Source of the DNA: a virus
Length of the DNA: 64,000 nucleotides
Virus record (IMG/VR): IMGVR_UViG_3300025162_000021
Coordinates: 1 to 64,000 of that record
Strand: one strand, 5' to 3'
In this document: piece after piece, positions 2,816 to 63,019 of the stretch
Numbering within the stretch: the stretch's first letter is position 1
Layout of the letters: each line of letters begins with the position of its first letter
Translations under genes and position numbers: made by a program
Notes under the pieces: model-generated
Database searches by the model: none
The model's input: only the letters and a program-made list of their open reading frames with translations
What the model was told of the DNA's origin: nothing

Positions 2816-2833
2816 ATAAGAGAGGTGTCGACA

Positions 2834-4696
2834 ATGGAGTTGAATGTAGCTGAGATGTTCGGTCCCGTGCTTCAGGGAGAAGGCAAGTCTCTCGGCGAGC
2901 CAGCTTTCTTTCTGAGGCTATCGAATTGTAATCTTATGTCCATAGGGTATAATCGAGGAATTTCTCAGCCAAAGATATGGATGAATAAAGGTGGAGAGAA
3001 AAATATACAAGATGTAAAGCCTGATGATGTAATCTGGGCCACAAATGAAAACGGAAATCTCGTTGAAACAAAAGTTCTATCAGTATTCGAATACGACATC
3101 AAAGATAGAGTTGAGCTAATAGTCGAAGGGATAGATCACCCTGTTTACTGCTCAGGGGAGCACCCCTGGCTAACAAATCAAGGGTGGAAGAGAGCTGACG
3201 AGCTTCTTAAAGACGATGAAATAATGCATTTTTCTAAGAAGCAGATTCAATCAGAAAGAATGAAAAAGTATAACCCTATTCATGATCCAGATACTATGAA
3301 AAGACATATTGAAAATACGAACTGGACAACTCAGGGAGAAAAAATTAAAGGTGATATTCAAAGAAGGAAAGCTGCAGACACTTATGTAGACGCCGTTACT
3401 TCCATGAGACGCAATAATCCAGAAAAGTATGCAGAGATGAATAAAAATACCTCAGTAAGAATGACAACTAATAATCCAATGTTTAATCAGGAAGTAGTTA
3501 AAAAAAGTAGAGGGACCCACCAGAATATAAATCAATATTACCCCTTTATGTCCAAATCAGAGAAAGATTTTTCTAATATTGCTATGAAAATGGGGCTGCC
3601 AGTTAAGTATATTGGAAGATTTGATCTTCAGATTAAACACAAGAGTAAAACATACTACCCTGATTTTATAATTGAGGGGACAAATAGACTTCTGGAAATA
3701 TACTACTCAAAAGGGAAATTATATTCTCACAGGAATGAACAGTGGAAAAAAGAAAGGCTGGAGGCCTTCGAGGCTAATGGCTATTCCTGCACGTTTGTAA
3801 ATTGTTCCGAGAGCAATATTAATGATATTAAAGATTTAATATCCACCGAAATAAAAATGCAGAACGGGGTAAAGATTATATCTGTAACAAAAGTTAATCA
3901 ATTTAAAACCCATTATGAGGGAGAAAAATCGTTATCTAATTCCGATACCCAGTTCAATATTACCACTAAGCCGATGAGAGCAATTGATATTATGTGTTAC
4001 CCTTATCATAATTTCATAGTTGATGGAATGGTTACGCATAATTGCGGCGGTCATAACGGTGAGAAAGTTCGCGATGGGTCCGCTACTTGGTGGTGTGACT
4101 CTGAAAAGATTTGGCGAGAAAGTAAATCGTATACTCCTGGTGAAATTATTGAATATATTAAGGACGCGGGTGAGCTTGATAATATTAGATCTGGATCTAC
4201 TCACTTAGTTATTACTGGCGGCGAGCCTCTCTTACGCAGGAATATCGATCCGCTAAAACTACTTATTGAAATGCTGAGGTATGATAATCTCGCAGATCAG
4301 ACATTCTATCCTTATATTGAGGTTGAGACGAACGGCACTTGCTCAACAGAAGACTTCTTGGATACGTATGTTGATCAGGTTAATTGTAGCCCTAAACTAG
4401 CTAATAGTGGTGTGCCTCGAGAGCAAAGAATTAAGCAGGATGCTATTGAGGAGATAAAGAATCATCTTAACTCTTGGTTCAAATTCGTTGTTAGCAAACC
4501 TGAAGATTGGAATGAGATCGAGAAAGATTTCTTGCCACTTATATTTAAGGATCAGATCATACTGATGCCTGCGGGAGCATCTCGCGAGGATCTTTTAGTT
4601 ACGAGTCCTATTGTATGGGAGATGGCTTGCAAGCATAACGTCAAGGCTACAACAAGACTGCAGACCATAACTTGGGATAAGAGAGTTGGCGTATGA
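2834..4696 (+). CDS. queE: QueE, 7-carboxy-7-deazaguanine synthase, interrupted by an intein
   Basis: Radical SAM enzyme that makes 7-carboxy-7-deazaguanine from carboxy-tetrahydropterin in preQ0 synthesis. Start ATG 2834 is preferred over GTG 2825 because GAGGT lies 8 nt before it. N-terminal MFGPVLQGEG and the FLRLSNCNL cluster motif are typical; the C-terminal extein has VITGGEPLL (SAM binding) and YIEVETNGT. A 368-aa intein splits the iron-sulphur motif; the mature protein would be about 252 aa, a normal QueE length. After splicing the cysteines read CxxxC, then 16 residues, then WWCDS, so there is an extended loop between the second and third cysteines rather than the usual two residues. 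The ATGA overlap with the next gene shows coupling. Confidence 0.93.
   Translation: MELNVAEMFGPVLQGEGKSLGEPAFFLRLSNCNLMSIGYNRGISQPKIWMNKGGEKNIQDVKPDDVIWATNENGNLVETKVLSVFEYDIKDRVELIVEGIDHPVYCSGEHPWLTNQGWKRADELLKDDEIMHFSKKQIQSERMKKYNPIHDPDTMKRHIENTNWTTQGEKIKGDIQRRKAADTYVDAVTSMRRNNPEKYAEMNKNTSVRMTTNNPMFNQEVVKKSRGTHQNINQYYPFMSKSEKDFSNIAMKMGLPVKYIGRFDLQIKHKSKTYYPDFIIEGTNRLLEIYYSKGKLYSHRNEQWKKERLEAFEANGYSCTFVNCSESNINDIKDLISTEIKMQNGVKIISVTKVNQFKTHYEGEKSLSNSDTQFNITTKPMRAIDIMCYPYHNFIVDGMVTHNCGGHNGEKVRDGSATWWCDSEKIWRESKSYTPGEIIEYIKDAGELDNIRSGSTHLVITGGEPLLRRNIDPLKLLIEMLRYDNLADQTFYPYIEVETNGTCSTEDFLDTYVDQVNCSPKLANSGVPREQRIKQDAIEEIKNHLNSWFKFVVSKPEDWNEIEKDFLPLIFKDQIILMPAGASREDLLVTSPIVWEMACKHNVKATTRLQTITWDKRVGV
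2939..4042 (+). mobile_element. Intein in QueE with Vsr-like (EDxHD) endonuclease domain
   Basis: In-frame 368-aa insertion. The Hint splicing domain shows KIWMNKGGEKNIQDVKPDDV near the start, block B EHPWLTNQGW, and a C-terminal HNFIVDGMVTHN followed by Cys as the +1 residue. The first intein residue is probably Ser (codon 2939-2941) after extein CNLM; the exact left junction is inferred. The middle holds a NUMOD3-like DNA-binding stretch (TTNNPMFNQEVVKKSRGTHQ) and a nuclease with SKSEKDF, YYPDFIIEG, LEIYYSKG and a downstream His. That pattern fits the EDxHD/Vsr-like homing endonucleases rather than LAGLIDADG. Confidence 0.85.
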
Positions 4697-5091
4697 TATT
4701 GGACAACGTATTCGTATTACCTATCATTCGAAGAAATTATCCCTCTTCCATAAAGGGAGAACTTTCACAAGAATTTCCTATTCAGGAGGACACTCGAGTT
4801 TTCTTGGGAGACTTTGCTTACGATAGAATGGAGATTTCTGGAGGATGGTATCATTCTTTCCTGAAGGGATGGAAATGGGATCCCTGGCAACTAATCAATG
4901 TAAAAGGGAAAGTTTCTAGATATGAGTCTAAGGGATTATTTAATCTAATACCAACTACTTTAACGTCCACAGAAATTATTGACACTTGTGATTCTATCGC
5001 CGACGAGCTCCCAGAGCCTATTCGTATTGCCTGGGAGCTTCGATGCGAAGTGTATAACAATGCACATCCGGAGATAAAGATAAATGAGTAA
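4693..5091 (+). CDS. Hypothetical protein downstream of queE
   Basis: 132 aa, ATGA overlap with queE, so it is translationally coupled. No signal peptide or membrane segment. It is rich in aromatic residues (GGWYHSFLKGWKWDPW). The place in the operon invites a QueD assignment, but the His/Cys zinc and catalytic motifs of QueD are absent, so I leave the function open. Confidence 0.6.
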   Translation: MILDNVFVLPIIRRNYPSSIKGELSQEFPIQEDTRVFLGDFAYDRMEISGGWYHSFLKGWKWDPWQLINVKGKVSRYESKGLFNLIPTTLTSTEIIDTCDSIADELPEPIRIAWELRCEVYNNAHPEIKINE

Positions 5092-5317
5092 AATGATGGG
5101 TTTCGAATGCGTTGTGCGCGGCTTACGTATCGAGAGGCTGATGAAGAGAACATCGTGGCCAGATAATATATACATTACTTTCAAAGATAAAGAAGTTCGT
5201 CAGTATGCTATTCAGGAAGATGGGCATGATATGCATCAGCAATATATGGCATCTGGAGAAGATATATTAGCTACAGACTGGGAGATTTCTCCACGTGATC
5301 CTAGTTACAGAGGTTAA
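5084..5317 (+). CDS. DUF2829/Tad2-like small protein, first copy
   Basis: 77 aa; overlaps the previous gene by 8 nt. Pattern: a short N-terminal helix, R-x-SWPD, a variable middle, then YMASGEDILATDWEI, which is the hallmark ending of the DUF2829 (Thoeris anti-defence 2-like) family (W...D-hL-A-x-DW). Known Tad2 proteins sequester the nucleotide signal of Thoeris immunity; whether this copy does so is inference. The N-terminus matches the family less well than the copy at 59966. It is adjacent (0 nt) to the helicase loader gene and so expressed with replication genes. Confidence 0.55.
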   Translation: MSKMMGFECVVRGLRIERLMKRTSWPDNIYITFKDKEVRQYAIQEDGHDMHQQYMASGEDILATDWEISPRDPSYRG

Positions 5318-6094
5318 ATGAAAGACTTCATACAATGCAGAACATGCGCAAAAAAGCCTGGACCTAAAAATATGCCAGGCTTTTTTTACGTAGACTTAGA
5401 AAATGGACAGCAAGCCATAGCAGAGTGTTCTTGCCACAAGAGATTTGTCAAGGAAGAACTTAATAGAATCAAAGCAAGTAAGGCTGGGCTTTGGTACTCT
5501 GATTATACTCCGGCGAATGATTATGTGGGAACTAAAAGTTTACAGAATGTAGAACACTTAGAAGAGTATATCAGATTTTTTAAATCTCCTGCCTACTCTA
5601 GTTCCATCATATATATGCACGGCCCCAATGGATCCCAAAAGACGACGTTAGCTCAGTGGGTCGGTTTGAGCCTTCTTCGTAAGGGATTTAAGGTCAAATA
5701 TATTCTTATGCAGTATCTTGTATCGAAGTTAGCTAACGAGAACTTTGAGACTGATGAAGAGGCTATTAAAGAACTCGAGGATCTGAAGAATGTAGATTGT
5801 CTCATTATAGACGAGGCCTTAGATAAAAATAAGGTGACCCTGTATAAGTCAGGATACCAGTTGCCCTTCTTGGAGTCTTTCATTAGAGATAGAGTAGATT
5901 ATAGGAAAAAAGGCATTGTATTCGTTAGCAACGTAGCGCCTAGTGATATTGAGAGCCAAGGATTCGGCAAATCTATACAAGACTTTATAGTTAGGAACAC
6001 TGTTCCCAAAGAAACAGATCTTTTATTTAAAGATGTGTATCATCAGGTTAAGTCCTCTTTTGATGTTGATAAGTTGTTTAAGGGGAATAAATGA
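5318..6094 (+). CDS. DnaC-like helicase loader ATPase
   Basis: 258 aa. The N-terminal zinc-binding region carries CRTC (residues 7-10) and CSC (37-39). It is followed by a P-loop ATPase: Walker A GPNGSQKT (102-109, with Gln where Gly or Ser is usual), Walker B VDCLIIDEAL, then a sensor-like FVSNVAP. The architecture matches phage DnaC/DnaI-type loaders that deliver the replicative helicase, and the very next gene, overlapping by ATGA, is a DnaB-like helicase. A strong terminator-like hairpin lies inside the first 25 codons (5350-5386), which may attenuate expression of loader and helicase. Confidence 0.8.
   Translation: MKDFIQCRTCAKKPGPKNMPGFFYVDLENGQQAIAECSCHKRFVKEELNRIKASKAGLWYSDYTPANDYVGTKSLQNVEHLEEYIRFFKSPAYSSSIIYMHGPNGSQKTTLAQWVGLSLLRKGFKVKYILMQYLVSKLANENFETDEEAIKELEDLKNVDCLIIDEALDKNKVTLYKSGYQLPFLESFIRDRVDYRKKGIVFVSNVAPSDIESQGFGKSIQDFIVRNTVPKETDLLFKDVYHQVKSSFDVDKLFKGNK
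5350..5386 (+). terminator. Intragenic terminator-like hairpin in the helicase loader gene
   Basis: AAAAAAGCCTGG (5350-5361), 13-nt loop, CCAGGCTTTTTT (5375-5386) plus one further T. This is a perfect 12-bp stem with A and T tracts, so it could act on either strand. It starts only 33 nt into the coding region. Confidence 0.6.
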
Positions 6095-7482
6095 AAAGAT
6101 CTAATCAAGACTTCATAGTACCGGCAGAATTTCAAGTACTGAAAATCCTTATTGACAACGAAGTCGATTGCCAGATTCTAAATGAGGGAATGTTTCCTCA
6201 TGAGGAAGCTAAAGCTCTCTTTCAGTCAGTAATGAAATTGAAAGACAAGGGCGAGTCTATAACTGAAGGATCTTTACTACGAGAAGCTAACTTCCTCAAC
6301 GACGATATCGACTTGCCTATGATCAAGAGTCTGATGGATCATAAGGCCGACCTCTCTAATTGGTTTCCGGCTATAGAGACCTTGCGGAAAGCTAGTATTA
6401 AGTATCAGTTGAACTTAGCTTTCAATAAGTTAGCCGAGACGACTAGTTTACCGGACGACTTAGAGTCTACTGGTATAAGTAACTCTCTATACGAAGCTCA
6501 ACAGGTTTTGTCTCGCGGTAGTAAAGCTACTGAGTCTAAGACTTTGGAAGAATGCTTAGACGATTATAAAGACGTTCTGGAAATGAGACGTTTAGGAAAG
6601 TACTATCCTTTCGGCGATCAGTTCCTTGATTCTCATTTGACGAAGAAGGCAGCGCCCGGGCAAGTCATCATGGTTGCTGGTTCGACAGGCACAGGTAAAT
6701 CAGCGTACGCTTTAAATATTCTAAATGGTATGATTAACTTAGGTCAGCCATGTATGTACTTCTCCTTGGAAATGGATACGGAGTCGACCTTCGATAGACT
6801 ATTAGCAATGAGAACTAGCGTGCCTGTTGAAGGCTGGTATACATCTGGCAATCAAATAAATCCTCTTCTGCGAAAGCTTGAAGAGGAGCGAAAGCTCTTA
6901 GAGAATAAGCCGTTCAGGTTTATCGATGATCCCAATGTCGATCTCGGTACTATACAATCTCTCATTCGAGAATTCAAGATGGTATATAGGGTCGATTACA
7001 TTTTTGTCGTTATTGACTTGGTGACTATGGTGAAGGAATTCTCTATGATGACCGGACAAAAGTCTTTAGCGAATGCTATAGAATTCGCGGTTAATAGGCT
7101 GAATGCTATGGCCAAGACAGAGAACGTGTGTTTCATGTGTGTGGCTCAGATGAATAGAGAGGCGGATAAAGAAAAGATAACTGAAATTGAAGATATTGAT
7201 AAATTGAAGCCTACGCTAAACCATATCAAGAATAGTAATGCTATGGCAGAGCGAGCGAGAACAGTGCTATCTATATTTAGGGGCAAGTATTACGCGGACA
7301 GATATTTTCCAGATGACGAGGCAGTAGAGTATATGGACGATATCATGGAAGTATCTATTTTGAAGCAAAGCCAAGGAAGAGTTGGCTCTATAGGTAAGTA
7401 TTTGTTCGAAGGTGAGTGTTTTCAATTGAAGCCTTACATAGAAGCAGACCACATTGATACTAATTCTGTAGGCGAATACTGA
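6091..7482 (+). CDS. DnaB-like replicative helicase
   Basis: 463 aa, ATGA overlap with the loader gene. The N-terminal helical domain (about 1-115, DnaB-N type) is followed by a linker and the RecA-like helicase core: Walker A AGSTGTGKS (196-204), FSLEMDTESTFDRLLA (the conserved SLEM region), and Walker B (VVIDLV). The motif-3/4 region (CVAQMNREADKEK) and the arginine-rich end (MAERARTVLSIFRGKYY) are also present. It unwinds DNA at the phage fork. No intein is present here, unlike many phage DnaB genes. Confidence 0.88.
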   Translation: MKRSNQDFIVPAEFQVLKILIDNEVDCQILNEGMFPHEEAKALFQSVMKLKDKGESITEGSLLREANFLNDDIDLPMIKSLMDHKADLSNWFPAIETLRKASIKYQLNLAFNKLAETTSLPDDLESTGISNSLYEAQQVLSRGSKATESKTLEECLDDYKDVLEMRRLGKYYPFGDQFLDSHLTKKAAPGQVIMVAGSTGTGKSAYALNILNGMINLGQPCMYFSLEMDTESTFDRLLAMRTSVPVEGWYTSGNQINPLLRKLEEERKLLENKPFRFIDDPNVDLGTIQSLIREFKMVYRVDYIFVVIDLVTMVKEFSMMTGQKSLANAIEFAVNRLNAMAKTENVCFMCVAQMNREADKEKITEIEDIDKLKPTLNHIKNSNAMAERARTVLSIFRGKYYADRYFPDDEAVEYMDDIMEVSILKQSQGRVGSIGKYLFEGECFQLKPYIEADHIDTNSVGEY

Positions 7483-13849: not shown

Positions 13850-15097
13850 ATGAGCGGAACGATACATAGAGCATTGAAAATAAGACTCTATCCCAATAGA
13901 ATACAAGAGACTCAAATACTGAAGACGCTCGGTTCTTGTCGTTTCCTCTATAATCAAATGCTCGCTGAGAGGATCAAAACCTATGATGAATGGAAAGCCT
14001 CTGGCGAAGATGTAAGAAAACTCTATGAATATCAATATAAGACAGAAAAGCAATATAAGCAAGAATTTGAATGGCTTTCTGAACCCGATTCAATCAGCCT
14101 CCAACAATCTCGAATCGATCTCTCAATGGCTTATCAGAACTTCTTCAAATCTCAATCGGGTAAAAGAAAAGGAAAATCAGGATTTCCAAAGTTCCATAAA
14201 CGAGGTCAAAAAGACTCATATCGAACTCTCAATCTTGGAACCAACATAGCAATCAACTACGACACTCGAAAAGTGAGACTACCTAAACTTGGTTGGATTA
14301 CTTTTCGTGACCTTCGCTGTAATACACAAGGAGCAATCAAACAAGCTACTGTAAGTCGTAGCAAAACAGGAAAATACTTTGTATCTATTCTATTTGAGCA
14401 AGAACTCGAATTAGAAGGAGTTGAAATCAATCAGGATCTGAAAACCAAGGGTCTTGATATGAGCTTAGCGAACTTCTATGTAGATGATGAAGGAAATTCT
14501 CCTGCATACGAACGTATCTACCGCAAAAATGAACCACGGTTGAAGTGGTTGCAAAAACAAGTCAGTAAGAAGCAGAAAGGTTCAAACAACCGAAAGAAAG
14601 CTCAATTAAGGGTGAACCAAGTATTTGAGAGAATTACGAATTCCAGGAAGGATTTCTCTCAGAAACTATCTACAAAACTCATTCAAGAAAATGATGTAAT
14701 TGTAGTTGAAACTCTTAATTTAAGAGCAATGGCTCAGTGTTTGAAACTTGGCAAATCGATCAACGACCTTGGTTATGGTGAATTCCTAAGACAGCTTCAA
14801 TACAAGAGCCTTTGGAATAATAAGACCTTGATTGAAGCCGATAAATGGTTTGCCTCTTCTAAAACCTGTTCAAGATGCGGATACGTTCACAAACAACTAC
14901 AGCTGGATGATCGAATTTTCAATTGTCCGAGCTGTGGCTTCGAGATTGATCGAGACCAGAATGCAGGAATCAATCTCAAAAATTATGGTCTAAAAGAATT
15001 AGGGCTGGGACAGCCCGAAATTAAGTCTGTGGAGACATCGATGCACAAGGTCGAGTCTGTGAAGCAGGAAGCCCTGAAATCTTTAGTTTCAGGGTAG
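13850..15097 (+). CDS. tnpB: TnpB, RNA-guided nuclease of IS605 family
   Basis: 415 aa. N-terminal wedge/REC-like region (ALKIRLYPNRIQETQILKTL), then a RuvC core: Asp in KGLDMSLANF, Glu in VVETLNL, and Asp in EIDRDQNAG. A zinc ribbon is inserted (TCSRCGYVH ... NCPSCGFEI). All catalytic acids and both Cys pairs are present, so it should be active. TnpB proteins use a right-end-derived omega RNA to cut DNA matching the sequence beyond the element end. Here the stop codon lies 3 nt after the right-end hairpin, so the RNA scaffold would overlap the 3' part of the gene. The start at 13850 follows an AT-rich stretch without a clear ribosome site. Confidence 0.9.
   Translation: MSGTIHRALKIRLYPNRIQETQILKTLGSCRFLYNQMLAERIKTYDEWKASGEDVRKLYEYQYKTEKQYKQEFEWLSEPDSISLQQSRIDLSMAYQNFFKSQSGKRKGKSGFPKFHKRGQKDSYRTLNLGTNIAINYDTRKVRLPKLGWITFRDLRCNTQGAIKQATVSRSKTGKYFVSILFEQELELEGVEINQDLKTKGLDMSLANFYVDDEGNSPAYERIYRKNEPRLKWLQKQVSKKQKGSNNRKKAQLRVNQVFERITNSRKDFSQKLSTKLIQENDVIVVETLNLRAMAQCLKLGKSINDLGYGEFLRQLQYKSLWNNKTLIEADKWFASSKTCSRCGYVHKQLQLDDRIFNCPSCGFEIDRDQNAGINLKNYGLKELGLGQPEIKSVETSMHKVESVKQEALKSLVSG
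15072..15094 (+). repeat. IS right-end palindrome
   Basis: 8-bp stem CCCTGAAA/TTTCAGGG with loop TCTTTAG, inside the last codons of tnpB. It marks the right end and the likely 3' hairpin of the omega RNA. Confidence 0.75.
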
Positions 15098-58231: not shown

Positions 58232-59065
58232 ATGAATATCGCACATGAGGCACCTCTAAATTACTTAGAGGCAGTAAGAGCAGTAACTGACTACGATTAC
58301 TGCCTTGTACACCGTTTGTCTAACCTCAGATACTTTAATTTCTTTAAGAAAAGTGTGGAGGCTGGAAGAAGAGTTATCCTAGATAACTCTCTGTTTGAGT
58401 TAGGCACCTCCTTCGATCCAGAGCAGTACTTGGAGTGGATTGAAAAATTAGGCCCAACGGAAGTTATAGCTCCTGATGTGTTTAATGATTTCCAGAAAAA
58501 CCTGAATTCTTTAAAAAGTTTCAATCTTATTTTTCGAAAAAGATTTCCACACACGAAATTAATCGGAGCTATTCACGGAGTTTCCAACATAGAGCTCTTG
58601 CATTCATTCGAGACTGCTATACATTATTGTGATAAGATAGCAATACCTTTTGGGTCTAAGGCCTTTGAAGGGCCTGTGTTGGAAGACTTAGACTCCGAAT
58701 TAAGCAGAATGAAAGACGACCTTCTATATAGGAAGTCGATGAATAGAATTTTATTTATTAAAAATGACTTGAAGAAGCGGTATGACTTATCAGTATTTAA
58801 AAAGTTTCCACTGCACCTACTCGGGTGTCACTATGGAATGGAACTCAAGCTATATAAGTATAAAACATCAATGTTTCCCTTCATCGAAACTGCGGATACC
58901 TCTCATCCCGTAGCTGCTGCATTGGAGAATAATTACTACAAAGAAAACTTATATTATTACAAACCTAAGGTCAAGATAGATGAGGTATTTGAAATTCCCT
59001 ATATCGATTCTAGGAAGGACTTAATGGTTATGAACATCGGCCGTTTTAGGAGAGAATTCTTATGA
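58232..59065 (+). CDS. dpdA: DpdA-like DNA 7-deazaguanine transglycosylase
   Basis: 277 aa, AAAGGAT upstream. TGT-fold features: VILDNSLFELG (first Asp, D51), IAPDVFNDF (82 and 86), KLIGAIHGVSNIEL (110-122), FPLHLLGCHYGMELK, and the second acid site in FIETADTSHP (D222). The absence of the tRNA-TGT zinc site and the short length fit phage DpdA enzymes that swap guanine for 7-deazaguanine in DNA. FolE2, QueE, QueC and the transporter in the same window support this. ATGA-type overlap with the kinase gene. Confidence 0.82.
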   Translation: MNIAHEAPLNYLEAVRAVTDYDYCLVHRLSNLRYFNFFKKSVEAGRRVILDNSLFELGTSFDPEQYLEWIEKLGPTEVIAPDVFNDFQKNLNSLKSFNLIFRKRFPHTKLIGAIHGVSNIELLHSFETAIHYCDKIAIPFGSKAFEGPVLEDLDSELSRMKDDLLYRKSMNRILFIKNDLKKRYDLSVFKKFPLHLLGCHYGMELKLYKYKTSMFPFIETADTSHPVAAALENNYYKENLYYYKPKVKIDEVFEIPYIDSRKDLMVMNIGRFRREFL

Positions 59066-59613
59066 TGAAGAGGATTGCTATTTCAGGCGCACAGTGTACA
59101 GGCAAAAGTTCTCTTATAGCAGCCTTGAAGGAAGATAAAGCTTTTAAGGCTTACAAAGTAAGATCCGAAGGAGTGCGATCTCTAAAAGAGAATTTCGGGT
59201 TCGATATCTATTCCGGTAACGCTGAAGTGCAGCTAGCTGTACTAGCTCTACAAGCTAAGGATTCTGGAGAGAACGGTATTCTACTGGATAGAACTGTCTT
59301 GGATTCTTTGACATACGCGCTGTATTATCATGAGCGTCAGAATCCCAGGCTACCGGAACCTATACTTAATTTTCTTACTCACGAGTCTACAGTAATAGCA
59401 AGCAGAATAGATCACTTTATCATTATTCAACCGTCCTTTAATATGATTTGGGATGGGACTAGAGTTATTGACACTGATCAGCAAAATGATATATCTTTAG
59501 GAATGATACGAATGCTGAGGATCCTAGATATTCCAGAAGAGAAAGTCTTCTTTATTCACGGCGGCTCTATTCAGGAAAGAGTCGAGTGGGTAAAAGCGGA
59601 AATATTTAAGTAG
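59062..59613 (+). CDS. Small P-loop kinase (NadR/AAA_28-like)
   Basis: 183 aa, overlaps dpdA. The N-terminal Walker A AISGAQCTGKSSL, NGILLDRTVLDSLTYALYYH (a Walker B-like DR), and a final helix pattern resemble nucleotide or nucleoside kinases. It may phosphorylate a nucleoside, or recycle the guanine set free by DpdA; the latter is speculation based only on the coupled genes. Confidence 0.65.
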   Translation: MMKRIAISGAQCTGKSSLIAALKEDKAFKAYKVRSEGVRSLKENFGFDIYSGNAEVQLAVLALQAKDSGENGILLDRTVLDSLTYALYYHERQNPRLPEPILNFLTHESTVIASRIDHFIIIQPSFNMIWDGTRVIDTDQQNDISLGMIRMLRILDIPEEKVFFIHGGSIQERVEWVKAEIFK

Positions 59614-59649: not shown

Positions 59650-59973
59650 ATGACTCTTAAAATAGGGTACAAAGACTATAAACTTAAGTTCTTGACGACC
59701 ATCACTAGAGATAAGACAGTGTGTGATGGTCTTTGTTTAAACGATGAGTCGGAAATTCATATAGAGTCTACGATTCATGAAATGGATGCCAGGCAAGCTC
59801 TGTGGCATGAAATATTCCATGCGTTCGAAAATACGAATGGAATACAAATAACGGAGCAAGAAATAGGCGCTCTCGCAAGAGGGATGACTCTATTTATACT
59901 CAACAATCCGGAATTTATGAAGAGGATGATGTCTAGTAAATCTATAAAGGATATGGGAGATAAGAATGCATGA
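59650..59973 (+). CDS. Small HExxH metallopeptidase-like protein
   Basis: 107 aa, GGTGCAATCAGG upstream. The motif ALWHEIFHAFENTNGI (about 56-71) is the HExxH zinc motif of small ImmA/IrrE-like or related peptidases, with a third ligand possibly in EQEIGAL. The domain is minimal. It could be an anti-defence or regulator-cleaving protease. Overlaps the Tad2-like gene by 8 nt. Confidence 0.6.
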   Translation: MTLKIGYKDYKLKFLTTITRDKTVCDGLCLNDESEIHIESTIHEMDARQALWHEIFHAFENTNGIQITEQEIGALARGMTLFILNNPEFMKRMMSSKSIKDMGDKNA

Positions 59974-60205
59974 TTTCTTCGGAGCCTTCCAACTACTGAA
60001 GGATGGGCAAAAAGTAACTAGAGGTTTGTGGTCGGAGACCTGGAAGGACGCGTGGATATCAATGACGTATCTTCCTGTACCTGGGGATCCTGATAAGGCC
60101 AAGCGACCTTTTATATATTTTTATAAGAATGGAGAAATGAATCCCTGGGTAATTACTCAAGCAGACGTCTTCGCTGAAGACTACGAAGTAATGCCAATCA
60201 CTTGA
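59966..60205 (+). CDS. DUF2829/Tad2-like protein, second copy
   Basis: 79 aa. The full family pattern is present: FFGAFQLLKDGQKVTRGLWS, a middle with PFIYFYKNGEMNPWVITQAD, then VFAEDYEV. This is closer to the consensus (FG-AL-x-LK-x-G-x-KV-x-R-x-W ... PW-x-x-x-xD-x-AEDW-x-V) than the copy at 5084. Tad2 proteins bind and remove Thoeris signal nucleotides. Position in the 7-deazaguanine gene cluster gives an anti-defence island. Confidence 0.72.
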   Translation: MHDFFGAFQLLKDGQKVTRGLWSETWKDAWISMTYLPVPGDPDKAKRPFIYFYKNGEMNPWVITQADVFAEDYEVMPIT

Positions 60206-60218
60206 AAAAGGAGTTTAG

Positions 60219-60938
60219 ATGAAGGAGTACAAGTATCTTAGTTGGTTTGTTACGGCATTCGTAACAATCCTTCTTATCTCAAACGTTATAGCTGGTAGGC
60301 TCGTACAAATGGGTCCATTTGTGGTAACAAGCGCAATGTTCTTATTTCCCCTGTCATACATCCTCTCGGACGTATTCACCGAGGTTTATGGATTTGCAGC
60401 TAGTAGGCGAGTAGTGTGGTACGGAGCTTTGGCAAACGCTATCATGCTTGTTATGTTCGTATTCGCTTCAGCTCTTCCTGCTCCTGGCTTTTTCGCCGAC
60501 GGCAAGAAGGCTTATGACGCCGTGCTCGGGGTAGTACCAAGAGTAGTTCTATTCTCTATCTTAGCGTACATTGTCGGTTCTTTCGCTAATGATGTCTTTA
60601 TGTCCAAGGTGAAGAAGCTCATGGTTGATTGGGATCCCACCCATAAGCATCTCTGGGTCCGTACTATCGGTAGTACTGTGGTGGGCCAGATTTTCGATAG
60701 TGGAATTTTTATCTTCGGCGTATTCCTCTTTACTATGCCTTTCCTCGCAGTTTGTGGAATGTTCATAGTACAGTATATCGTCAAGGTCCTAATTGAGGCT
60801 GTGATGACTCCCGTCACTTACGTGGTTGTTAAGACCTTGAAGAAGAGCGAGGGCATCGACGTAGTAGCTACTGATGCATCTAGTCACACTCCCTTCAGCC
60901 TTGCTACCGAAAATGCAGAAGTGAACTTGAAGTCCTAA
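60219..60938 (+). CDS. Queuosine precursor transporter (YhhQ/QPTR)
   Basis: 239 aa, AAAAGGAG upstream. About six hydrophobic segments; conserved features SNVIAGRLVQMGPFV, FPLSYILSDVFTEVYGFAAS, and VRTIGSTVVGQIFDSGIFIF. These are family hallmarks. It imports preQ0/preQ1-type bases and so gives a salvage route to the same intermediate that FolE2, QueE and QueC would make. Confidence 0.88.
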   Translation: MKEYKYLSWFVTAFVTILLISNVIAGRLVQMGPFVVTSAMFLFPLSYILSDVFTEVYGFAASRRVVWYGALANAIMLVMFVFASALPAPGFFADGKKAYDAVLGVVPRVVLFSILAYIVGSFANDVFMSKVKKLMVDWDPTHKHLWVRTIGSTVVGQIFDSGIFIFGVFLFTMPFLAVCGMFIVQYIVKVLIEAVMTPVTYVVVKTLKKSEGIDVVATDASSHTPFSLATENAEVNLKS

Positions 60939-61223: not shown

Positions 61224-62042
61224 ATGAGCATGTATGAATCAGTTATCTCGGGAACGGAAAATATTGACAAAGTCCATAAGGTTGTAGTTAGTCTTTCTGG
61301 CGGACTTGATTCCACAACGCTTCTATACTTTATGGTAAAGAAACTTGGTAGAGAAAATGTAGTCGCACTAAGCTTCGATTACAATCAGAGGCACGGTGAT
61401 GTGGAACTCAAGCAGGCATCTAAGACATGTGAGAAGCTCGGGGTCAAGCATAAGATTATTAATCTCTCTTTCCTCGGAGAAATCGCTGCAAACGTATCAG
61501 CGATGGTCAAGGGGTCGGTTGCAACCCCAACAATGGGTGATCTCGACGCTGAGAAGACTGTGCCAACGTATGTACCATTTCGTAATACAATTCTTACGGG
61601 GATCACTTTAGCTTACGCTGAAGCCAATGGAGCAGATGGTATCGCTCTCGGCGTCCAGTATGGTGATTACGAGAACAATGAAGTCTACTTATATTGGGAT
61701 TGTCAGGAAGTTTTCACCAAGGCTATGCAGGCTGTAGCTGATCTCAATAACAAGCACAAGATTACTTTTATCGCTCCCTTCGTTAAATTGAAGAAAGTAG
61801 ATGAGATACAACTCGGCTCAGAACTAAGTATTCCCTACGAGGATTCTTGGACCTGCTATAATCCCACCATAAAGTTTGAAAGAATGGATTATTCTTTCGA
61901 CCCCATGGGAGGCAGAAATGGCCACTCAAGGAATCGATATATCCCTTGTGGCATTTGCCCATCGTGCGCTGGTCGAGCTGATTCTTTCAAGGAGCTCAAG
62001 ATGAAAGATCCTCTCGTAGAGCAGGACGGGGTTGTATATTGA
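61224..62042 (+). CDS. queC: QueC, 7-cyano-7-deazaguanine (preQ0) synthase
   Basis: 272 aa. PP-loop VSLSGGLDSTTLL (about 22-34), FDYNQRHGDVELKQA, VPFRNTILTGITLAYAEANG, GVQYGDYENN, SIPYEDSWTCYNP, and the zinc site CGICPSCAGRADSF. It converts carboxy-deazaguanine to preQ0 with ATP and ammonia. Follows queE in the pathway though 56 kb away on the map. The TTGA junction couples it to folE2. Confidence 0.93.
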   Translation: MSMYESVISGTENIDKVHKVVVSLSGGLDSTTLLYFMVKKLGRENVVALSFDYNQRHGDVELKQASKTCEKLGVKHKIINLSFLGEIAANVSAMVKGSVATPTMGDLDAEKTVPTYVPFRNTILTGITLAYAEANGADGIALGVQYGDYENNEVYLYWDCQEVFTKAMQAVADLNNKHKITFIAPFVKLKKVDEIQLGSELSIPYEDSWTCYNPTIKFERMDYSFDPMGGRNGHSRNRYIPCGICPSCAGRADSFKELKMKDPLVEQDGVVY

Positions 62043-63019
62043 GTCTTCCTGATATGCAAAAATGTACCGACGGCTTTCCTAAGATCCCTATTAGTAAGGT
62101 AGGTATTAGAAATATAGAACTACCAATAAAGGTATACACGAAGGACTCTGTAGCATCGCGATCTTTTTCCACTATAGCTACCATATCCTCATACTGCGAC
62201 TTAGTCGAAGGCGTGAAAGGTATTAATATGTCGAGAATATCTAGAACGATATTCGACATATTCAAAGAGCCTAGAGGATTCATTTTAGATATGGCAGAAG
62301 AGTGCGTATATGCACTCCAGAAGGCGCACGATACGGATGACATTTACCTTAAAGTAAAATTCAAGTATCCCTTCATTCATAATTCGCCGATATCCAAGGA
62401 TCTCAAGTCCCCAGAAATTGTCGACGTGGAAATTGAAACCACGCTTGTGAATAATATTTTGAAGAAGTACTTGACTGTGGATGTAGTTGGTATGTCCTTG
62501 TGTCCGTGTTCTAAGGAAATGAGCCTTCTCATTAATAACCTGACCGAGGAAGAGAGAACTCTATTCGACGTCTGGGACAGTAACGCCGACGACCTCTGGC
62601 CTACTATGAAAAGTCTCGTTAGCAAATTGAAGAAGGCTGGCTTCGGCGCTCATAATCAAAAGTCATTTGTTAAAATTAAAGTAGAAGTAAGAGATGACAT
62701 CGTATGGATAGAAGACTTGGTCAATCTTGTGTATCGATGCACTTCCGCCCCAACCTTCTCGGTTTTAAAGAGACCAGATGAAAAGTGGGTTACAGAGGTA
62801 TCTTATATGGGCGGGTATTACGATGATAATAAACAATTTGTAGAAGTACCTGACGCTGGGCCTAAATTCGTGGAAGATATTTCTCGTCAGTGCGCAGAGA
62901 AGCTGAATGAGATGTGTGCAGTGAAAGATTATGTTGTCGTAGTTCGTAATCAGGAAAGTATTCATAGCGGCGACATAGAAGCAGTCGCCGTGTTGTCAGC
63001 AGGAAAAGAATTACGATGA
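62039..63019 (+). CDS. folE2: GTP cyclohydrolase IB (FolE2)
   Basis: 326 aa from TTG 62039 (overlap TTGA) or slightly shorter from ATG 62054. Zinc/catalytic motif GMSLCPCSKEMS (C155, C157), GAHNQKSF (about H205), GINMSRISRTIF, and ending NQESIHSGDIEAVAVLSAGK, all typical of FolE2. It makes dihydroneopterin triphosphate from GTP, the entry to the queuosine-type pathway, with metals other than those of FolE1. First step before QueD, which is missing in this window. Confidence 0.88.
   Translation: MSLPDMQKCTDGFPKIPISKVGIRNIELPIKVYTKDSVASRSFSTIATISSYCDLVEGVKGINMSRISRTIFDIFKEPRGFILDMAEECVYALQKAHDTDDIYLKVKFKYPFIHNSPISKDLKSPEIVDVEIETTLVNNILKKYLTVDVVGMSLCPCSKEMSLLINNLTEEERTLFDVWDSNADDLWPTMKSLVSKLKKAGFGAHNQKSFVKIKVEVRDDIVWIEDLVNLVYRCTSAPTFSVLKRPDEKWVTEVSYMGGYYDDNKQFVEVPDAGPKFVEDISRQCAEKLNEMCAVKDYVVVVRNQESIHSGDIEAVAVLSAGKELR

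Follow-up and report, generated by a model that had tools for sequence, protein, structure and literature searches.

Two strongly diverged Tad2-like proteins encoded about 55 kb apart in a single phage genome

Tad2 proteins are phage sponges that soak up the signals of the bacterial immune system Thoeris, and an earlier note on the virus record IMGVR_UViG_3300025162_000021, which represents an uncultured phage, had pointed to two DUF2829/Tad2-like genes within its first 64,000 nucleotides, the stretch that was analysed here and that we refer to as the window. One of them (copy A, positions 59966-60205) had been described as fitting the family well, and the other (copy B, positions 5084-5317) as sharing only the C-terminal signature. 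This raises the question of whether both genes encode genuine members of the family and, if so, whether the two proteins might take up the same signal, different signals, or in one case no immune signal at all.

Copy A, on the plus strand, encodes a compact protein of 79 amino acids, starting at an ATG at 59966, with a GGAG element 7 nt upstream, and with a stop codon ending at 60205. Against the Pfam Tad2-like profile (PF11195), whose curated cut-off is 25 bits, it scored 44.4 bits (E 2.5e-11) over profile positions 3-72 of 73. Its AlphaFold (AF2) model was confident (pLDDT 92.4), with the predicted order alpha1 (residues 4-12), beta1 (17-19), alpha2 (20-25), beta2 (30-36), beta3 (47-54), beta4 (57-60), alpha3 (65-69) and beta5 (73-75). 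Foldseek comparison of this model with the PDB returned Tad2 or AcrIIA7 structures at all of ranks 1 to 22 (best E 2.1e-5, TM 0.80), headed by 8smf_H, a chain of SPO1 Tad2 with gcADPR (TM 0.80). The strong matches include chains with gcADPR (8smf, 8smg), His-ADPR (9eib) and cGG (8wjd). A scan with the single sequence of copy A found no close relative. The good fit claimed for this copy is borne out by both profile score and fold, and its membership of the family is secure.

Copy B, also on the plus strand, encodes a reduced Tad2-like protein of 77 amino acids, of the EDILATDWEI type, starting at an ATG at 5084 preceded by GGAG and with a stop codon ending at 5317. It scored 29.4 bits against PF11195 (E 1.2e-6), above the cut-off, and since the match covers profile positions 1-72 of 73, its description as carrying the C-terminal signature only was too weak. 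The AF2 model (pLDDT 87.8) has no alpha2 and otherwise the element order of copy A; the alignment behind it held 14 rows, five of them long-form relatives, which may have nudged the model towards the Tad2 fold. Searched against the PDB, this model matched Tad2 structures at all of ranks 1 to 12 (best E 4.7e-4), the next unrelated match having E 0.32, and with a TM of 0.65 copy B is structurally farther from Tad2 than copy A. An absence of the Tad2 fold, which would speak against the initial assignment, was looked for by structure prediction and was observed in neither protein. In the viral structure library BFVD, copy B matched many phage proteins named Thoeris anti-defense 2-like in UniProt, and single phages, Iacchus and Semele among them, contributed several matching proteins each. 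Scanning with its single sequence recovered the same virus and three distant viruses, and its nearest relatives, at 24-38% identity, are located in other viral contigs. Both copies lie within tight same-strand gene runs and are preceded by a ribosome-binding site of the GGAG type.

To set these matches against chance, a profile was built from 27 long-form relatives, with copies A and B excluded, and run on the 559 ORFs of the window together with 4,000 shuffles. Copy A ranked first (55.8 bits) and was followed by copy B (13.7 bits, E 0.012), with the shuffles reaching 12.0 bits at most. The low score places copy B far from the classic form, and its membership is secured by Pfam and structure together rather than by this profile alone. 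In the entire record of 170,592 bp, PF11195 matched exactly two proteins, copies A and B. A second contig of 100% identity joins both ends of the record, with an overlap of 127 bp, so that the 170.6 kb record looks complete and was probably assembled as a circle. Nucleotide relatives of its first 24 kb were absent among 50,697 phage records, and a further comparison gave distant helicase matches only. The window also contains a TnpB/IS605 OrfB gene (13850-15097), whose closest genome match (65%) is to a Candidatus Cloacimonadota MAG, which hints only weakly at the host or the habitat and does not suffice to name the host.

The two proteins, assigned to one family by Pfam and predicted fold, are strongly diverged, as the earlier note had proposed: BLASTP found no alignment between them, and they were never sisters in 200 bootstrap trees (48 rows, 75 columns), in a tree that is poorly resolved and in which both branches are long. 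Copy A groups with compact long-form proteins and copy B with short DILATDW proteins, and solved structures lie near neither copy in the 48-row tree. Given the missing alignment and the separate tree places, a recent duplication of one gene was rejected as the origin of the pair. Acinetobacter phage XC38 and Aeromonas phage Ahp1 both encode relatives of copy A; in the latter (locus L012, 2980-4908) the Tad2-like gene adjoins a nicotinamide phosphoribosyltransferase gene, a pairing that suggests a counter-defence combining a sponge with the rebuilding of NAD. Among the short forms, a viral protein of 222 amino acids (genome G004, locus L008, 1321-1989, minus strand) carries a tandem of two short Tad2-like domains, both of which end in LATDWEI.

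The presence of two or more diverged Tad2-like genes in one phage is already known. Tad2-like matches led to 46 other phage or viral records, mostly fragments, and each of these contains one copy. Among 15 cultured phages, picked partly for looking multi-copy, SpaA1 has four copies over the PF11195 cut-off and SAC12B and PaBG two each, while Bacchae and Lpa804 give three and four matches, respectively, with only one each over the cut-off. Staphylococcus phage SpaA1 (NC_018277) carries several diverged Tad2-like (DUF2829) genes, both classic and reduced, three of which were printed in 2012 as homologs of SPO1 gp34.65, later named Tad2 (PMC3398947), and four of which are detected by Pfam; two of its copies are adjacent, whereas about 55 kb separate copies A and B. 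Lactobacillus phage SAC12B (79.8 and 27.5 bits) and Pseudomonas phage PaBG (83.6 and 49.1 bits) each combine a classic with a weaker gene, as is the case here, but these phages are unrelated to the present one and their pairs are not orthologous to copies A and B. Together with the tandem-domain protein, these phages indicate that carrying two copies is uncommon, though not without precedent.

In Tad2, strand beta4, helix alpha3 and the beta1-beta2, beta3-beta4 and beta4-alpha3 loops wall the gcADPR pocket; dimers form via alpha2 and beta2 and then pair into a tetramer, and cyclic dinucleotides are bound via a long segment inserted between beta2 and beta5 (PMC12043709). In our alignment, GWNGK in the beta1-beta2 loop is found in all characterised members and W..SQxD at beta4-alpha3 in most of them. 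The pockets of copies A and B were compared from sequence alone, their motifs being assigned to pocket walls by alignment and secondary structure only, and both models are of monomers, whereas the Tad2 pocket forms only between protomers. Neither copy has GWNGK. In copy A its place, in the beta1-beta2 loop region, is held by residues 21-30 (LWSETWKDAW; 60026-60055, plus strand), where Trp22 is retained and the rest of the motif is gone (LWSETWKDA). Residues 61-72 (WVITQADVFAED; 60146-60181, plus strand) span the beta4-alpha3 loop and alpha3 and retain the conserved Trp61, Gln65 and Asp67, the motif reading WVITQAD; all four of these residues are conserved throughout the aligned long-form relatives. 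In the aligned residues 55-68 of copy B (MASGEDILATDWEI; 5246-5287, plus strand), Asp60 is retained, Gly replaces Gln and the second Trp is gone. The motifs of copy B are SWPDN and MASGED, in which only the first Trp, the Ser and the Asp remain, and those of the characterised sponges are not matched. More generally, the short DILATDW forms have no conserved pocket motif except the C-terminal D.LATDW segment. The long beta2-beta5 insertion seen in 8kbi and 8wjd is absent from both proteins, of 79 and 77 amino acids.

Comparison with the known proteins places these differences within a family whose ligands vary. SPO1 Tad2 (gp34.65; 8sme, 8smf, 8smg, 8wje), a gcADPR sponge, has the same fold and is the top Foldseek match of both copies, at about 20-24% identity; the Trp, Gln and Asp of its pocket loops are also present in copy A, which has a shorter middle in addition to lacking GWNGK, and copy B differs from it in having no alpha2, Gln or second Trp. 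ModTad2/MoTad2, from a Myroides odoratus prophage (8v3e, 9eib), is a sponge for His-ADPR with the same fold, found at ranks 2 and 5 for copy A and at 16-24% identity to A and B. Its differences are a longer middle and the retention of both GWNGK and the second Trp; with copy B it shares the missing Gln (SVSD instead of SQTD), so that loss of the Gln alone does not forbid binding. SptTad2 and the AcrIIA7/HgmTad2-type proteins (8wjd, 8kbi-8kbm; structures with cGG and cADPR) share fold and family with copies A and B but bear the dinucleotide site on the long beta2-beta5 insertion that these two lack. The ligand is gcADPR for SPO1 Tad2 and His-ADPR for MoTad2 (PMC13299392), and cGG is present in PDB structures of SptTad2 and AcrIIA7.

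The two genes had also been contrasted by location, one beside helicase genes and one in a modification island. Copy B is indeed followed directly by an IstB/DnaC-like helicase loader gene (5318-6094; PF01695, 31.2 bits) and a DnaB-type replicative helicase gene (6091-7482; PF03796, 102.6 bits), and its start is overlapped by an ORF of 132 amino acids without a family match (4693-5091), all on the plus strand. About 390 bp upstream of copy B there is, however, a radical-SAM (QueE-like) gene (2825-4696, plus strand; PF04055, 31.8 bits), so that both copies neighbour 7-deazaguanine genes and the contrast is softer than proposed. The QueE-like gene contains an apparent intein (PF14890, Intein_splicing, 28.2 bits, under its cut-off of 35.8), which by eye interrupts the CxxxC cluster-binding motif (NCNLM / THN-C junction). 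Within a RecA gene of this phage (24921-27050, minus strand), a LAGLIDADG homing-endonuclease region (164.5 and 48.5 bits) points to a likely second intein.

The start of copy A is overlapped by an ORF of 107 amino acids (59650-59973; phrog_1233, unknown function, 44.4 bits), and downstream of it there are genes for a YhhQ-type (Vut_1) transporter, directly 3' (60219-60938; PF02592, 146.5 bits), QueC (61224-62042; PF06508, 171.1 bits) and the GTP cyclohydrolase FolE2 (62039-63019; PF02649, 195.1 bits), all on the plus strand. These three genes indicate that a 7-deazaguanine gene island is really present, and it would presumably serve DNA modification rather than tRNA queuosine. Preceding the modification genes, an ORF of 277 amino acids (58232-59065) resembles a DpdA/TGT-type enzyme by eye; it matched nothing in Pfam or NCBIfam, gave no credible hit in the PDB and hit only phrog_19058 (unknown function, 83.5 bits). 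A small P-loop kinase is encoded at 59062-59613, two genes upstream of copy A (AAA_28, 51.3 bits; phrog_2107, named thymidylate kinase, 71 bits). A role of this gene in NAD salvage was considered and not called, its likeness to the kinase part of NadR being weak (19.7 bits to the C-terminal part of the model, cut-off 341) and the PDB giving no match. No NAMPT-type (PF04095) or NADAR (PF08719) gene was detected in the whole record.

On balance, we consider it probable that the phage acquired these two genes of the Tad2-like family (PF11195) independently, and that copy A acts as a sponge taking up an immune signal of the ADP-ribose type; copy B is a reduced Tad2-fold protein that may bind a nucleotide-like ligand. 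Copy A would oligomerise as SPO1 Tad2 does and would hold an ADP-ribose-derived signal in pockets between protomers, and sequestration of this signal would keep the Thoeris effector off. Copy B, with the same core fold, no alpha2 and an altered pocket, would most likely bind a small nucleotide-like ligand, a guess from its fold. This explanation is favoured by the Pfam matches of both copies over the whole domain, by confident models whose strong PDB matches are all Tad2 structures, and by the predicted position of Trp22, Trp61, Gln65 and Asp67 of copy A in the beta1-beta2 loop, the beta4-alpha3 loop and alpha3, which are pocket walls (PMC12043709). The neighbourhood of the Ahp1 relative is the company expected where an NAD-based defence is opposed, and the tight gene runs with ribosome-binding sites point in the same direction. 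Against it count, as read from the alignments and models, the lack of GWNGK and of the long insertion in copy A and, in copy B, the absence of alpha2, through which dimers form, and of both the Gln and the second Trp, besides the absence of NAMPT-type and NADAR genes from the record; moreover, the family name does not prove function.

The same losses in copy B, together with the poor motif conservation of its short relatives, would also fit a phage in which only copy A works as a sponge, copy B having lost signal binding and taken another role near the replication genes, for instance as an accessory protein of the helicase-loader operon. Its position between the 132-residue ORF and the loader, with zero gap to the latter, agrees with such a role, but small phage genes can lie anywhere, and a relative of copy B in another viral locus (L004) adjoins a lysozyme-like ORF (by eye) and not helicase genes; we therefore regard this as possible but doubtful. 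Because the two copies are not a recent duplication, it is plausible that they bind different ligands, which by analogy would fit the known diversity of the family. The narrower proposal that copy A takes one Thoeris signal and copy B another draws on the different ligands of SPO1 Tad2 (gcADPR), MoTad2 (His-ADPR) and SptTad2 and AcrIIA7 (cGG) and on the unlike pocket positions of the two copies in the alignment, but with no solved structure near either of them in the tree it is a tentative reading, which we hold to be rather unlikely. It goes further to suppose that the short DILATDW subgroup, copy B included, might form a separate Tad2-fold class for a signal new to Tad2, which phages would pair with a classic copy so as to cover two signals, and this we think unlikely indeed.

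Inhibition of something else, such as Cas9, is suggested by the name AcrIIA7, since that protein (8kbi, 9kzr) has the Tad2 fold and is found by the same profile. According to the PDB titles, however, AcrIIA7 was complexed with cADPR and cGG, as fits a sponge, and it bears the long insertion that copies A and B do not have, making such an activity very improbable for them. Finally, the closeness of the long-form profile score of copy B to that of the best shuffle could suggest that it is a short ORF whose DILATDWEI tail arose by chance, with no true kinship, but a Pfam match across 72/73 positions, a confident fold for which Tad2 is the sole strong PDB match, many Tad2-named matches in BFVD, relatives in other viruses and a ribosome-binding site make this hardly credible.

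At present, the gain is that two diverged and testable members are added to a known family, and they carry the caution that the name Tad2-like does not settle the ligand. If copies A and B bind different signals, they would provide a compact case of one phage using one fold against two defence signals, and copy B would open up the short subgroup, whose structural relatives are widespread in phages.
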